Below, piece by piece: positions 28,634 through 32,991 of a DNA stretch of 33,384 nt. The translations under genes and the position numbers were made by a program. This stretch comes from Bacteroidota bacterium. GTDB taxonomy: Bacteria > Bacteroidota > Bacteroidia > Flavobacteriales > JADGDT01. Under the pieces are notes generated by a model. It was not told the DNA's origin. It saw nothing but the letters and a program-made list of their open reading frames with translations, and did not search any database. The first letter of the stretch is position 1. The number at the start of each line of letters is the position of its first letter. Location of the stretch: assembly GCA_039714315.1 (NCBI GenBank), contig JBDLJM010000019.1:1-33384 (forward strand). The letters run 5' to 3'.

Positions 28634-29494
28634 ATGGCGAATTTAAAAGAAATTAGAAATCGTATTACATCTGTTTCATCAACGAGGCAGATTACGAGTG
28701 CCATGAAAATGGTTTCTGCCTCTAAATTAAAGAGGGCTCAAGAAGCAGCTTTCAGTTTACGTCCTTATGCTGATAAACTTCAAGAGATTATTAAAAACGT
28801 ATCTTCTTCACTAGATGGTGATGCACAGTCTATGTATTCAGCTAAGCGTGATGTAAAAAAGGTTTTGATAATTGCGGTTTCTTCGAATAGAGGGTTGTGT
28901 GGAGCATTCAATGTTAATGTTGGAAAAAAAATCAATGAGATAGTAAGAGATAGATATAATAATGTATCTGTTGAAGTACTGACCATTGGTAAGAAAATCA
29001 ACGACATAGCTGTGAAAACTTATCCTGTAGTTGCTGATCACAGTGATTTATTAGATGATATTTCATTTGAAAATACAGTCAAAATTGCTCAATGGGCAAT
29101 GGATAGATTTGAAGAAGGTAAGTATGATAGAATTGATGTAGTTTATAATAAGTTTAAAAATGCTGCAACACAAGTTCTTACTCAGGAACAATTTCTTCCT
29201 ATTATTGCTAATGAATCTGATTCTTCAGTTAGTACGGATTACATATTTGAGCCGGGTAAAGATCGTATTATCACTGATTTGATGCCTACATCATTAAAAG
29301 TTCAGCTGCATGGAGCTATACTAGACTCTAACGCGGCAGAACATGGTGCACGTATGACAAGTATGCATAAAGCTACTGATAATGCTACAGAACTGATAGG
29401 CGAACTTAAACTGACATATAATAAAGCACGTCAGGCTTCTATAACCAACGAAATTCTTGAAATAGTTGGTGGGGCCGAAGCACTAAATAGTTAA
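28634..29494 (+). CDS. atpG: ATP synthase F1 subunit gamma
   Basis: 286 residues. The N-terminal helix starts NLKEIRNRITSVSSTRQITSAMKMVSASKLKRAQ and the C-terminal helix has AAEHGARMTSMHKATDNATELIGELKLTYNKARQASITNEILEIVGGAEAL; these two helices form the rotating central shaft. The middle Rossmann-like part has SSNRGLCGAFN. Last gene of the atp operon; a terminator follows the stop by 28 nt. AtpD and AtpC are not adjacent. Confidence 0.96.
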   Translation: MANLKEIRNRITSVSSTRQITSAMKMVSASKLKRAQEAAFSLRPYADKLQEIIKNVSSSLDGDAQSMYSAKRDVKKVLIIAVSSNRGLCGAFNVNVGKKINEIVRDRYNNVSVEVLTIGKKINDIAVKTYPVVADHSDLLDDISFENTVKIAQWAMDRFEEGKYDRIDVVYNKFKNAATQVLTQEQFLPIIANESDSSVSTDYIFEPGKDRIITDLMPTSLKVQLHGAILDSNAAEHGARMTSMHKATDNATELIGELKLTYNKARQASITNEILEIVGGAEALNS

Positions 29495-29522
29495 TTCAGC
29501 TTTTAACAATATAATTTTTATT

Positions 29523-29559
29523 AACCACTTCTGTTTTTAATATCGGGAGTGGTTTTTTT
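29523..29559 (+). terminator. Intrinsic terminator of the atp operon
   Basis: AACCACTT (29523-29530) pairs with GAGTGGTT-type arm AGTGGTT (29548-29554) over 7 bp with a further T-G pair, loop about 16 nt, followed by a run of T to 29559. Confidence 0.85.
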
Positions 29560-29699
29560 ATTATATTTAATTGAAGTTTCCCACGTTATAGTTTTTACAT
29601 CCGAGACGTGAATATAATCCCCGATATTTATCTATGCCCGGGTGCAGAGCATTGTTATGATGAGGTTTATTTGTTTTTAACGAAGGGAGCAGCGAAATA

Positions 29700-29878
29700 T
29701 AGTTCGCCCGGATGGAAGTGGCAGCCTTTGTTTGGGATAGCTTGTGAGAAATATATTTTGGCGGCTGAGCCATAGCGAAGACCCCGAAATGTAATTTTCG
29801 AACTGCTATGCCGTACAAAGCTATAGCGGATAGCCTGTCTGCCAATCCGGGCAGGCCGGAAATAGCGCCAAAAAAAAG
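29700..29878 (+). ncRNA. Candidate structured RNA or dispersed structured element
   Basis: This fills most of the 425-nt gap after atpG. Three nested stems are visible. P1: GCCCGGAT (29706-29713) with ATCCGGGC (29845-29852), perfect 8 bp. P2: 29726-29741 with 29805-29820, containing CTTTGT/ACAAAG and ATAGC/GCTAT in one register with two mismatches. P3: 29745-29761 with 29784-29800, 17 positions with one mismatch. Five pairs are G-U in the plus strand and would be A-C in the minus strand, which favours plus-strand RNA. P1's 3' arm can alternatively form the local hairpin CTGCC/GGCAG. It ends GCGCCA plus an A-run, not a T-run. I recall similar intergenic sequences in other flavobacterial genomes, but cannot name a family. 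Confidence 0.5.
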
Positions 29879-29919
29879 ACATGGGAAATTTCAGAAGTTA
29901 ATAAACCAATTTGATTATT

Positions 29920-30564
29920 ATGAATGAGAGAAAGATATTAATTGTTGCCTTTTTATTGATCTTACCTTTTTACAGTTTCTCTCAAAGTAAGTTTGGAGTT
30001 GGCGGATCTTATATTTATAACAATTCTGAATATGTTTTAGGCAAGGTTATTCCATTTGTAGATAGTTTTAGTATACTCGATGATAAGAATGGTTTTGATG
30101 TTGAGTTACACTACAAATATAGGTTTAATGAGAAGTTTGCAATTTCTTCAAAGGTTGATTACCTAAGAGTTAAGCAGAAATATGAAATTGTGTTCCTGTC
30201 TCTTCTTTATGATAAGTTTGAAAGGGTATTTGATCAGCACTACCTGGAGTTTGCAGTTTACCCAAATTTATATTTCTCACGTGATTTTGCGGTTTATTTT
30301 GGGCCAAAACTTATATACAATATCAAGAATTCAGAGGTGAATAATGAATTAAATGAATACGGATTAGGGATAAATTTCAATACAATGAGTATTGGTCTGG
30401 ATATAGGATTGAATTATGTTTATGAGATGTTTTATTTCGATTTGTCTTATTCCTATTTGCCCAATCATACTATTGGAAACATCGAAATATTAAATTATCA
30501 GTCCGATATACCGGTTACTTATAACGCTACACGTGTCAATTTTACTGTGGGACTTGAGTTTTAG
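29920..30564 (+). CDS. Outer-membrane beta-barrel protein of unknown function
   Basis: 214 residues from the ATG at 29920; a TTG nine bases earlier is the alternative. The signal peptide (about 1-21) ends FYSFSQ. The rest has alternating aromatic/polar strands typical of an eight-strand barrel (ELHYKYRFNEKFAISSKVDYLR, YLEFAVYPNLYFSRDFAVYFGPKLIYN, IGLDIGLNYVYEMFYFDLSYSY), with C-terminal RVNFTVGLEF ending in Phe. It resembles the general outer-membrane protein beta-barrel group common in Bacteroidetes. No operon partner; it converges on the biotin carrier gene. Confidence 0.75.
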   Translation: MNERKILIVAFLLILPFYSFSQSKFGVGGSYIYNNSEYVLGKVIPFVDSFSILDDKNGFDVELHYKYRFNEKFAISSKVDYLRVKQKYEIVFLSLLYDKFERVFDQHYLEFAVYPNLYFSRDFAVYFGPKLIYNIKNSEVNNELNEYGLGINFNTMSIGLDIGLNYVYEMFYFDLSYSYLPNHTIGNIEILNYQSDIPVTYNATRVNFTVGLEF

Positions 30565-30598
30565 CTTATGGTCTATTTTAGAAATTGGAGTGTTAGGT

Positions 30599-31105
30599 TC
30601 ATTCAAGTTCTATTAAGATTTCATCTTTATCTACAGTATCATTTTTTGAGATGTTAACATTTTTAATTTTTCCGACACTGTTAGATTTTATTATGTTCTC
30701 CATTTTCATGGCTTCTAATACTAGTAGGTGTTGTCCCTCTTTAATCGGATCATTTTTTTTGATTAATATGTCCAGTACCAGCCCCGGCATAGGTGCTTTA
30801 ATATATCTTGACTCGCTATCATTCTTCCTTCCATATCCTAAATTATGAATTAATTTATCGTATTGATCTCTTAAATTGGTCTTGAAGTATTTACCGTTTA
30901 CCAGTATTTCTATTGTTTTGGTGTTTTCGTTTAAGTCTATAATATCCAAATCGTATTCAATACCATCTTTTTCTATGATATAGTTGTTTTTATTTTGCGA
31001 CTTGATCGAAAAACTGAAATTATCGGAGTCTATTTTACCTGTAAATATAGAATCTTCACTTAGTTCAATTTCATATTTACGGTTATTTACATTTGCTTCT
31101 GACAT
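30599..31105 (-). CDS. Biotin carboxyl carrier protein (acyl-CoA carboxylase type)
   Basis: 168 residues. The C-terminal biotinyl domain (about 95-168) has APMPGLVLDILIKKNDPIKEGQ and the biotin site EAMKMEN, with Lys134 to be biotinylated. The N-terminal part (about 8-85) is a beta-rich domain as found before the biotinyl domain in propionyl- or methylcrotonyl-CoA carboxylases. It would carry CO2 between a biotin carboxylase and a carboxyltransferase in the cytoplasm. Both partner genes are absent nearby, which is unusual since relatives often sit next to them. With the epimerase at 1.3 kb, propionyl-CoA carboxylation is a plausible role. Confidence 0.88.
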   Translation of the reverse strand: MSEANVNNRKYEIELSEDSIFTGKIDSDNFSFSIKSQNKNNYIIEKDGIEYDLDIIDLNENTKTIEILVNGKYFKTNLRDQYDKLIHNLGYGRKNDSESRYIKAPMPGLVLDILIKKNDPIKEGQHLLVLEAMKMENIIKSNSVGKIKNVNISKNDTVDKDEILIELE

Positions 31106-31219
31106 TTATGAGATGATTTTAAGAGTTATAGCGCTAAATTTTTAATAACTTTAGATATGGCATATTATTTGCGATCATCATACTAAAGTATTAAAATTAG
31201 TAATTTAAAATTGTCTACA

Positions 31220-31840
31220 ATGAAAAGAATTATATTATTATCAATTGCTCTTGTAACTTTTCTTTCGGTAAACGCGCAGAACAATACTAAAGTTGGTATA
31301 AAAGGAGGCTTTAATTATAATATGTCTTCTACTGATTTAAGTGATGCTCCGCTTGGTGCCTGGAATGCAATAAAGGATCCTAAAGCGAACAACGGATGGC
31401 ATTTAGGTGTGCAATACAGAAGTTATTGCGGCGAGAAATTATATATTCAGCCCGAGTTAATTTATTCCCAGACATCAGAATCGTACGAAATAGACCTAAA
31501 TAATAATTGGATTAAAACTGATTTTGATGATAGGATGGTAGATATAAACCTATTGTTGGGGATGAAATTTATGGATATGATCAGAGTTTATGGCGGACCA
31601 ATGGGGATGCTGAATGTTGGAACAAATCAGGAAGCTAATGATATAGTAACAGCGTATAAATCTTTTAGAATGGGATATCAATTAGGGATTGGGGTAGATC
31701 TGTTATCTGCATTTACCTTTGATGTTTCTTATAAAGGAAGTTTTAATTCTGATAATGGAGTTATGAAAGTTGGTGGAGTAGATGTTCCGGTATCTCAAAA
31801 TGTATCTCAGGTATTATTGGGTGTTGGAGTTTTGTTTTAA
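31220..31840 (+). CDS. Outer-membrane beta-barrel protein (PorT-like family)
   Basis: 206 residues from the ATG at 31220; a TTG at 31211 would add three residues. The signal peptide ends SVNAQ. The start NTKVGIKGGFNYN and the strands WHLGVQYRSYCGEKLYIQPELIYSQ, VDINLLLGMKFMDMIRVYGGPMGML, FRMGYQLGIGVDLLSAFTFDVSYKGSF and the end VLLGVGVLF fit the porin-family outer-membrane beta-barrel domain widespread in Bacteroidetes. No specific function can be given. It converges on the next gene. Confidence 0.8.
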   Translation: MKRIILLSIALVTFLSVNAQNNTKVGIKGGFNYNMSSTDLSDAPLGAWNAIKDPKANNGWHLGVQYRSYCGEKLYIQPELIYSQTSESYEIDLNNNWIKTDFDDRMVDINLLLGMKFMDMIRVYGGPMGMLNVGTNQEANDIVTAYKSFRMGYQLGIGVDLLSAFTFDVSYKGSFNSDNGVMKVGGVDVPVSQNVSQVLLGVGVLF

Positions 31841-31868
31841 AAAAAAAGGGAGGCTTAAAAAACCTCCC
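31839..31868 (-). terminator. Terminator between convergent outer-membrane genes
   Basis: GGGAGG (31848-31853) pairs with CCTCCC (31863-31868) across a 9-nt loop. The A9 run (31839-31847) gives a T-run after the hairpin on the minus strand, for the gene ending at 31875. The plus-strand gene ends at 31840, directly before it, and may also stop here although no T-run follows on that side. Confidence 0.82.
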
Positions 31869-31874
31869 TGTATA

Positions 31875-32312
31875 TTATAATCTCATTGTTAACCCAAGAC
31901 CTGCTGTTCCACCACTGGTATGTCCGCCACCAAATTCAAGGTAGATACCCCATTTTTCACTCCAGAACCATCGTCCTCCTACCTGAAGTCCTGCATCAAA
32001 ATCACTGTCATTACCATTGTTTTTATCGTTACCGTTGTCTAAGCCAAAAGCATATCCTGCATTTGCTCCTGCGTATACATCCCATTGAGCAGGTAAATCA
32101 ATAAGAGTGTCAAAGTAAAAATTAGCTTTTACTCCGGCAGTTAAATAACTCAATTCCAGATTTGTACCCGCTGCAGGTGCAATTGTTATATTTTCAGCTA
32201 CAGGTATCTCATAACTTAAACCTATAACACCAAAATTTAATTGACTTGTTGCCTGTGCAAATAAACCGTTCATTGCAAATAGCATAATAACTAATAGTGT
32301 AATTTTTTTCAT
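31875..32312 (-). CDS. Small outer-membrane barrel protein
   Basis: 145 residues from the ATG at 32312, which begins MKKITLLVIMLFAMNGLFAQ, a clear signal peptide; a start at 32339 would add nine residues before it and is less likely. The mature part has short beta-strands with Gly and aromatic residues (LNFGVIGLSYEIPV, LTAGVKANFYFDTL, WDVYAGANAGYAFGL, FDAGLQVGGRWFWSEKWGIYLEFGGGH) and a loop rich in Asn and Asp (about 96-112), ending LGLTMRL. It looks like a small eight-stranded barrel. Function unknown. Confidence 0.72.
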   Translation of the reverse strand: MKKITLLVIMLFAMNGLFAQATSQLNFGVIGLSYEIPVAENITIAPAAGTNLELSYLTAGVKANFYFDTLIDLPAQWDVYAGANAGYAFGLDNGNDKNNGNDSDFDAGLQVGGRWFWSEKWGIYLEFGGGHTSGGTAGLGLTMRL

Positions 32313-32368
32313 CTTACATATTATTTTAATTAATAACATGGATATTTATGATCCATATAAAAGTTTGT

Positions 32369-32439: not shown

Positions 32440-32991
32440 TTAGTCAATTTTTACATGTCCCCAGTTTTCTCCACTGCGTATTCTATTTAATTGAGTGTGA
32501 GTAATTCCAAATTGTTTTGCAATTACTTTTAATCTTGTGTTAGGGTTTCTTTTAAGGTATTTTTTCAGACGAATAACTTCAGTCTCTGTTAGTTTAGCGT
32601 TTCTGATAATTCCCTTTCTGTTAATTTTGGCATAAGCCGGATTTTTTCTCTGATGAGCTTCCATCTCGCTTTTAGATGCCCATGCTAAATTTGTATGCTT
32701 ATTATTGGTTTTATCATAGTCAATATGAATTACAAATTTTTGGTCATCGCGCTTTGGTGGTAGAAATTGAAGAGCTACCAATTTGTGTATATACCTGGAA
32801 GTTTTTTTCATCTTATAGGTAATTCTTAATAAATCATATCCGGCAATTACGGTAGGATTCATCAACTTCCCATCAGCTACGTTTGTGTAACTAATAACGC
32901 GACCATAATTTGAAATTTTGTACCTCTCATTGAATTTTTCACCATCAATTTCCAGTACTTTCCATTCTTCATCTCTGAAACTTGCAATCAT
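32440..32991 (-). CDS. NUMOD4/HNH-domain protein with C-terminal helix-turn-helix
   Basis: 183 residues. The N-terminal NUMOD4 domain (about 7-45) has EEWKVLEIDGEKF and YKISNYGRVIS. The HNH nuclease domain (about 60-112) has RYIHKLVALQFLP with His69, then VIHIDYDKTNNKHTNLAWAS with His89 and the Asn residues of the HNH fold. The first Asn of the usual VNHID is Ile here. The C-terminal part (about 132-180) looks like a helix-turn-helix (LTETEVIRLKKYL, KVIAKQFGITHTQLNRIRSG). It resembles free-standing homing-type endonucleases; no intron, intein or phage gene adjoins it. Activity is uncertain. Confidence 0.82.
   Translation of the reverse strand: MIASFRDEEWKVLEIDGEKFNERYKISNYGRVISYTNVADGKLMNPTVIAGYDLLRITYKMKKTSRYIHKLVALQFLPPKRDDQKFVIHIDYDKTNNKHTNLAWASKSEMEAHQRKNPAYAKINRKGIIRNAKLTETEVIRLKKYLKRNPNTRLKVIAKQFGITHTQLNRIRSGENWGHVKID

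Follow-up and report, generated by a model that had tools for sequence, protein, structure and literature searches.

The segment at 29700-29878 of the window, the whole 33,384-nucleotide stretch of Bacteroidota DNA analysed here, is probably one member of a MITE-like family of mobile elements that is specific to this lineage, and it carries a divergent Flavo-1 RNA core. The MITE-like reading follows from a multi-copy intergenic repeat with facing ends and with target duplications at three loci. MITE-like repeats and Flavo-1 are both already known; the combination of the two and the evidence on strand are new.

The original prediction described a large structured element between the atpG terminator and an outer-membrane gene, and this location was correct. 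The atpG gene ends at 29494 and is followed by a terminator-like hairpin, the repeat unit and the ATG of the outer-membrane gene at 29920, 26 nt beyond the 3′ end of the unit. The segment at 29700-29878 is only the middle of that unit, and the only reading frames inside it (92 and 71 amino acids) are both on the minus strand, inside the structured repeat. The features are as follows.

29522-29556, plus strand: terminator-like hairpin of atpG, the upstream neighbour (sequence reading and inverted repeat).
29563-29571, plus strand: left flank ATATTTAAT, a possible target site, matched at 6/7 with the right flank.
29572-29893, plus strand: whole repeat unit, MITE-like, 322 bp, non-coding, with ends common to four other facing pairs of 49-350 bp.
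29572-29587, plus strand: left terminal inverted repeat TGAAGTTTCCCACGTT, from a pattern scan of the genome.
29701-29844, plus strand: Flavo-1-like RNA core, which spans RF01705 positions 1-76 and holds a long insertion at its apex.
29706-29713 with 29845-29852, plus strand: stem P1, 8 bp, perfect, specific to the window copy.
29726-29741 with 29805-29820, plus strand: stem P2, two mismatches (U-U at 29732, G-G at 29736).
29745-29761 with 29784-29800, plus strand: stem P3, one mismatch (A-A at 29751).
29834-29859, plus strand: local hairpin CCTGTCTGCC-AATCCG-GGCAGGCCGG, an optional module that the alignment shows to be missing from copies C23, C18 and C131.
29878-29893, minus strand: right terminal inverted repeat TGAAATTTCCCATGTC, 13/16 identical to the left end.
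29894-29902, plus strand: right flank GAAGTTAAT, a possible target site, from flank comparison.
29920-30564, plus strand: outer-membrane beta-barrel gene, the downstream neighbour (PF13505, 28.6 bits, just under the 28.7 cut-off; E 1.8e-6).

Copies were sought in the host genome, a draft assembly of 3.4 Mb in 273 contigs that is 99% complete. A query covering 29650-29900 gave 21 matches, comprising the window copy, seven other long copies with 79-96% identity to the window segment, and fragments. All of the host-genome copies are intergenic. The genes beside them are unrelated and lie on either strand: upstream neighbours were co-directional in 14 of 22 cases and downstream neighbours in 17 of 30, counts that take in canonical Flavo-1 copies and short units. 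No match to 29690-29890 was found in 59 relatives, two sister species of the same genus among them, and the plasmids and phages searched contained no match to the element. The exact core pattern likewise had no matches in GTDB genomes or IMG/VR. At the site after atpG, the sister species have other neighbours and hence no clean empty site; no equivalent element was found in their genomes. Many copies (L009, L019, L020, L021, L026 and L083) lie within ~150 bases of a contig end; the assembly therefore probably breaks at these repeats, and the real copy number is probably higher.

The 322-bp unit is bounded by terminal inverted repeats, TGAAGTTTCCCAYGTY, which belong to an imperfect inverted repeat in the window with arms at 29572-29595 and 29870-29893. 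The 16-mer TGAAGTTTCCCATGTC, allowing up to two mismatches, occurred 15 times in the host genome versus twice for the reversed control, and was at background in the two sister species (2 versus 1 for the control, and 0 versus 1). Most of the three-mismatch matches that were examined fell within long coding frames and are attributable to chance; a possible 2.7-kb pair of ends on C20 was discarded for the same reason. Two facing ends were present at five loci, namely C19 (the window, 322 bp), C46 (350 bp), C3 (126 bp), C74 (85 bp) and C90 (49 bp), and the shorter ones are interpreted as derivatives of the full unit by internal deletion. Clear target duplications of 8-9 bp were seen at three of the five: ACAATTAAT at C46 (9/9), GTTAYTTAT at C74 (8/9) and ACTTTAAT at C3 (8/8, offset by 3 nt). 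The window copy's own duplication is weak (6/7), and the flanks at C90 show none. Of 120 flank pairings, only 2 scored as high, with the true pairing counted among them. No transposase was found beside the ends (up to three mismatches) at the loci examined in this draft assembly of 273 contigs.

Bacterial MITEs, whose definition and effects on transcript stability and processing have been reviewed (PMC3733652), offer the closest comparison. Like RUP, NEMIS, ERIC/YPAL and Nezha (PMC3733652), the window element is non-coding and intergenic, folds strongly, has terminal inverted repeats of ~16 bp and belongs to a family in which three of the five facing pairs of ends carry clear target duplications. 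The MITE definition gives terminal inverted repeats of 15-30 bp, and those of the window element are 16 bp and 13/16 identical. Unlike bacterial MITEs, its full units of 322-350 bp slightly exceed the stated 70-300 bp, its partner transposase was not found in the draft assembly, and its core comes from a widespread RNA family. A short, palindromic, intergenic and repeated element could also be a REP or REPIN spread by a RAYT (Y1) transposase (PMC3116915, PMC3733652). The window element shares the palindromic, intergenic and repeated character of those repeats, but it is much longer and has other ends, and the combination of inverted-repeat ends and target duplications sets its family apart from REPs; moreover, Y1_Tnp (PF01797) had no matches in the 99% complete host genome, whereas the controls (E. 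coli and others) were positive. We regard a REP/REPIN origin as extremely improbable.

The core of the MITE-like element was compared with known RNA families. No Rfam family passed the gathering threshold across the window. With relaxed filters, 29701-29844 aligned to Flavo-1 (RF01705) with 32.7 bits (E 2.4e-5), covering 76/76 model positions with four pair columns flagged as non-standard. The gathering score of RF01705 is 42 bits, so the window copy is described here as Flavo-1-like or divergent and is not a member by Rfam's rule. Paralogues of the same architecture scored 43.2 (C18) and 41.8 bits (C23), and further paralogues scored 38.7 (C131), 35.4 (C46) and 32.9 bits (C127). Judged by these alignments, the window core is a divergent Flavo-1. 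It shares with RF01705 the core sequence GGAUnGnAGYGGCA..CC / GCUAUAGCGGAUAGCC, the order of helices, and a dispersed, high-copy distribution in Flavobacteriales; it differs by having a longer stem at the apex (P2/P3), a 3′ hairpin as an optional module, enclosing terminal inverted repeats and a score below the family cut-off.

Flavo-1 was described by Weinberg et al. (2010) as an RNA without known function (PMC2864571), and it is listed as one of the commonest small-RNA families of bacteria, again with no known function (PMC9029176). The family occurs in Bacteroidetes genomes, and the host is one of these. Above the cut-off, we found 13 canonical copies in the host genome and Flavo-1 in 50 of 148 Flavobacteriales genomes, often with at least 29 copies. 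In F. psychrophilum, Flavo-1 matches are sense or antisense to transcripts without a pattern (PMC9723704), a picture more in keeping with insertions than with dedicated regulators. Canonical Flavo-1 elsewhere showed no target duplications (51 copies; own flanks 1.47 versus 1.29 ± 0.26 when shuffled), and the MITE claim is therefore limited to the subfamily of the window element.

Several of the canonical host copies L009-L027 carry an extra hairpin, variable in sequence, immediately 5′ of an ATTTATCC motif, and several have another hairpin 3′ of the core, with arms that vary yet remain complementary; the full Flavo-1 element in this genus thus exceeds the length of the Rfam model. Canonical Flavo-1 copies L124, L125 and L130, from different species, have similar flanks and apparently occupy one and the same site, which implies that some copies are old and have been kept vertically.

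The stems of the window copy are real and exceed chance. All three nested stems were recovered with the positions and mismatch counts first described, and the five wobble pairs of P2 and P3 (29733, 29745, 29748, 29754 and 29759) were re-examined and are every one G-U on the plus strand. The region 29680-29890 has a folding z of -3.2. The 100-nt core at 29723-29822 folds at -40.4 kcal/mol on the plus strand (z -6.2; 0/200 shuffles equally good) and at -21.5 kcal/mol on the minus strand (z -1.3).

Evidence on strand was taken from the way in which the pairs decay. A DNA hairpin should depart from pairing toward G-T about as often as toward A-C, whereas in a plus-strand RNA only G-U still pairs. 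Across the eight long copies, P2 pairs were kept in 96% of cells and P3 pairs in 97.5%, and a formal count gave 97.4% of cells paired. Covariation within these eight copies alone was no better than shuffling, so that this set is weak by itself; it contains one double change, from A-U to G-C at a single P3 pair in C18. One-sided departures from Watson-Crick pairing in P2 and P3 comprised six G-U versus no A-C with the degenerate copy C224 excluded, and C224 alone has three A-C changes in these stems. The same preference was seen in 80 distinct canonical Flavo-1 arms, with 19 G-U versus 4 A-C (p 0.0013, an optimistic value because the copies are related), and in canonical arms at pairs other than the seven that the Rfam model scores (12 versus 3). 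A 3-bp helix within the core covaries clearly within the genus (GGC/GCC, GCC/GGC, GCT/AGC, GAC/GTT and AGC/GCT). When folded, the plus strand was more stable in 7/7 long copies, by 10-23 kcal/mol, and among 93 canonical copies 68 favoured the plus strand and 23 the minus. Read from substitutions and predicted folds, these data indicate that the plus strand evolves as an RNA would.

A repeat that acts only as DNA would instead have palindromes that matter for protein binding or as a transposition substrate, and an RNA fold without a role. Such a reading would accommodate the terminal inverted repeats and target duplications, the many canonical arms that are nearly perfect palindromes, and an orientation relative to genes that shows no strong bias. 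Neither the asymmetry between plus- and minus-strand folds nor the excess of G-U over A-C is expected of a DNA hairpin, however, and we consider a DNA-only repeat improbable. The plus-strand RNA-like structure that had been proposed is upheld by the homology to Flavo-1, by the retention of G-U over A-C outside C224 and by the covarying Flavo-1 core helix. A MITE without conserved structure had been named as the finding that would speak against it; the element is indeed MITE-like, but its structure is nevertheless conserved.

The proposed switch, in which P1 and the local hairpin would alternate, did not survive comparison between copies. The 3′ arm of P1 (29845-29852) is missing from C23, C18 and C131. 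C127, C46, C70 and C224 have A for G at 29849, a change that breaks P1 and falls within the loop of the local hairpin. P1 is perfect in the window copy only, the two other copies with both arms having a C-A mismatch, and the neighbouring genes are unrelated. A riboswitch-like leader RNA was rejected on the same grounds, namely that the alternative pairing is not conserved between copies and that the genes beside them are unrelated.

More broadly, the window copy could be a regulatory RNA of this one locus: a small RNA, or a 5′ leader that serves the outer-membrane gene, in either case perhaps with the P1/hairpin switch. Its end 26 nt ahead of the ATG at 29920, its stable plus-strand fold and the alternative pairing present in this copy would suit such a role. 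The same element, however, adjoins unrelated genes on either strand, a perfect P1 occurs in no other copy, and the sister genomes have no counterpart after atpG. The unit also lacks a notable promoter or terminator signature: no Bacteroidetes-type promoter pattern lies within 29572-29893, and around these coordinates a sigma-70 scan gave just three weak 9/12 matches and a terminator was not found. A locus-specific regulatory RNA is therefore highly unlikely in our judgement. Three possibilities had originally been offered, and the dispersed element is the one retained; a dedicated 5′ leader and an independent small RNA of the locus are both disfavoured by the unrelated neighbours and by the lack of the element in the sisters.

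For the MITE-like element with a Flavo-1 core, the following mechanism may apply. The element, non-coding, ~0.3 kb long, ending in terminal inverted repeats of 16 bp and with AT-rich target duplications of 8-9 bp, would presumably be mobilised by a transposase that acts in trans and recognises these ends. A plus-strand transcript of a copy could then arise, for instance when transcription of atpG reads on in the direction of the outer-membrane gene, and the transcribed core would form a stable ~100-nt hairpin with a local effect on the transcript, such as on its stability or processing, and would not act as a ligand switch. A further proposal is that Flavo-1 is here the plus-strand-selected core of a mobile repeat, with a fold that serves the element through spread or transcript protection and not a circuit of the host; this we put forward tentatively and think unlikely as it stands. 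For the function of Flavo-1, the results suggest seeking a role for the element or its host transcript, rather than a riboswitch or a single small RNA. They also call for caution, as a Flavo-1 match that precedes a gene may have arrived there by insertion without being a dedicated leader.

Two copies, L004 and L008 (C70:6478 and C224:1209), are hybrids in which the usual 5′ part is replaced by a 5′ module, ATTTTTGGAGCTCATGATTACTTCGTAATTGT, that resembles one near canonical Flavo-1 copies; their sequences suggest recombination between subfamilies. The apical loops of L011, L014, L022, L167, L180 and L183 contain small palindromic units, e.g., GGTCACTGAGCGGAGTCGAAGTG, which look like short repeats nested within Flavo-1 copies. 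In the window, three outer-membrane beta-barrel genes and a biotin-carrier gene follow atpG at 29920-32339, and a homing-endonuclease-like gene for an HNH endonuclease with a NUMOD4 motif lies close to the window end (32440-32991, minus strand). In the sister genome G002, atpG is directly followed by the orthologue of the window's last barrel gene. From this gene order, the stretch between atpG and the last barrel gene would have been either inserted in the host or lost in G002.
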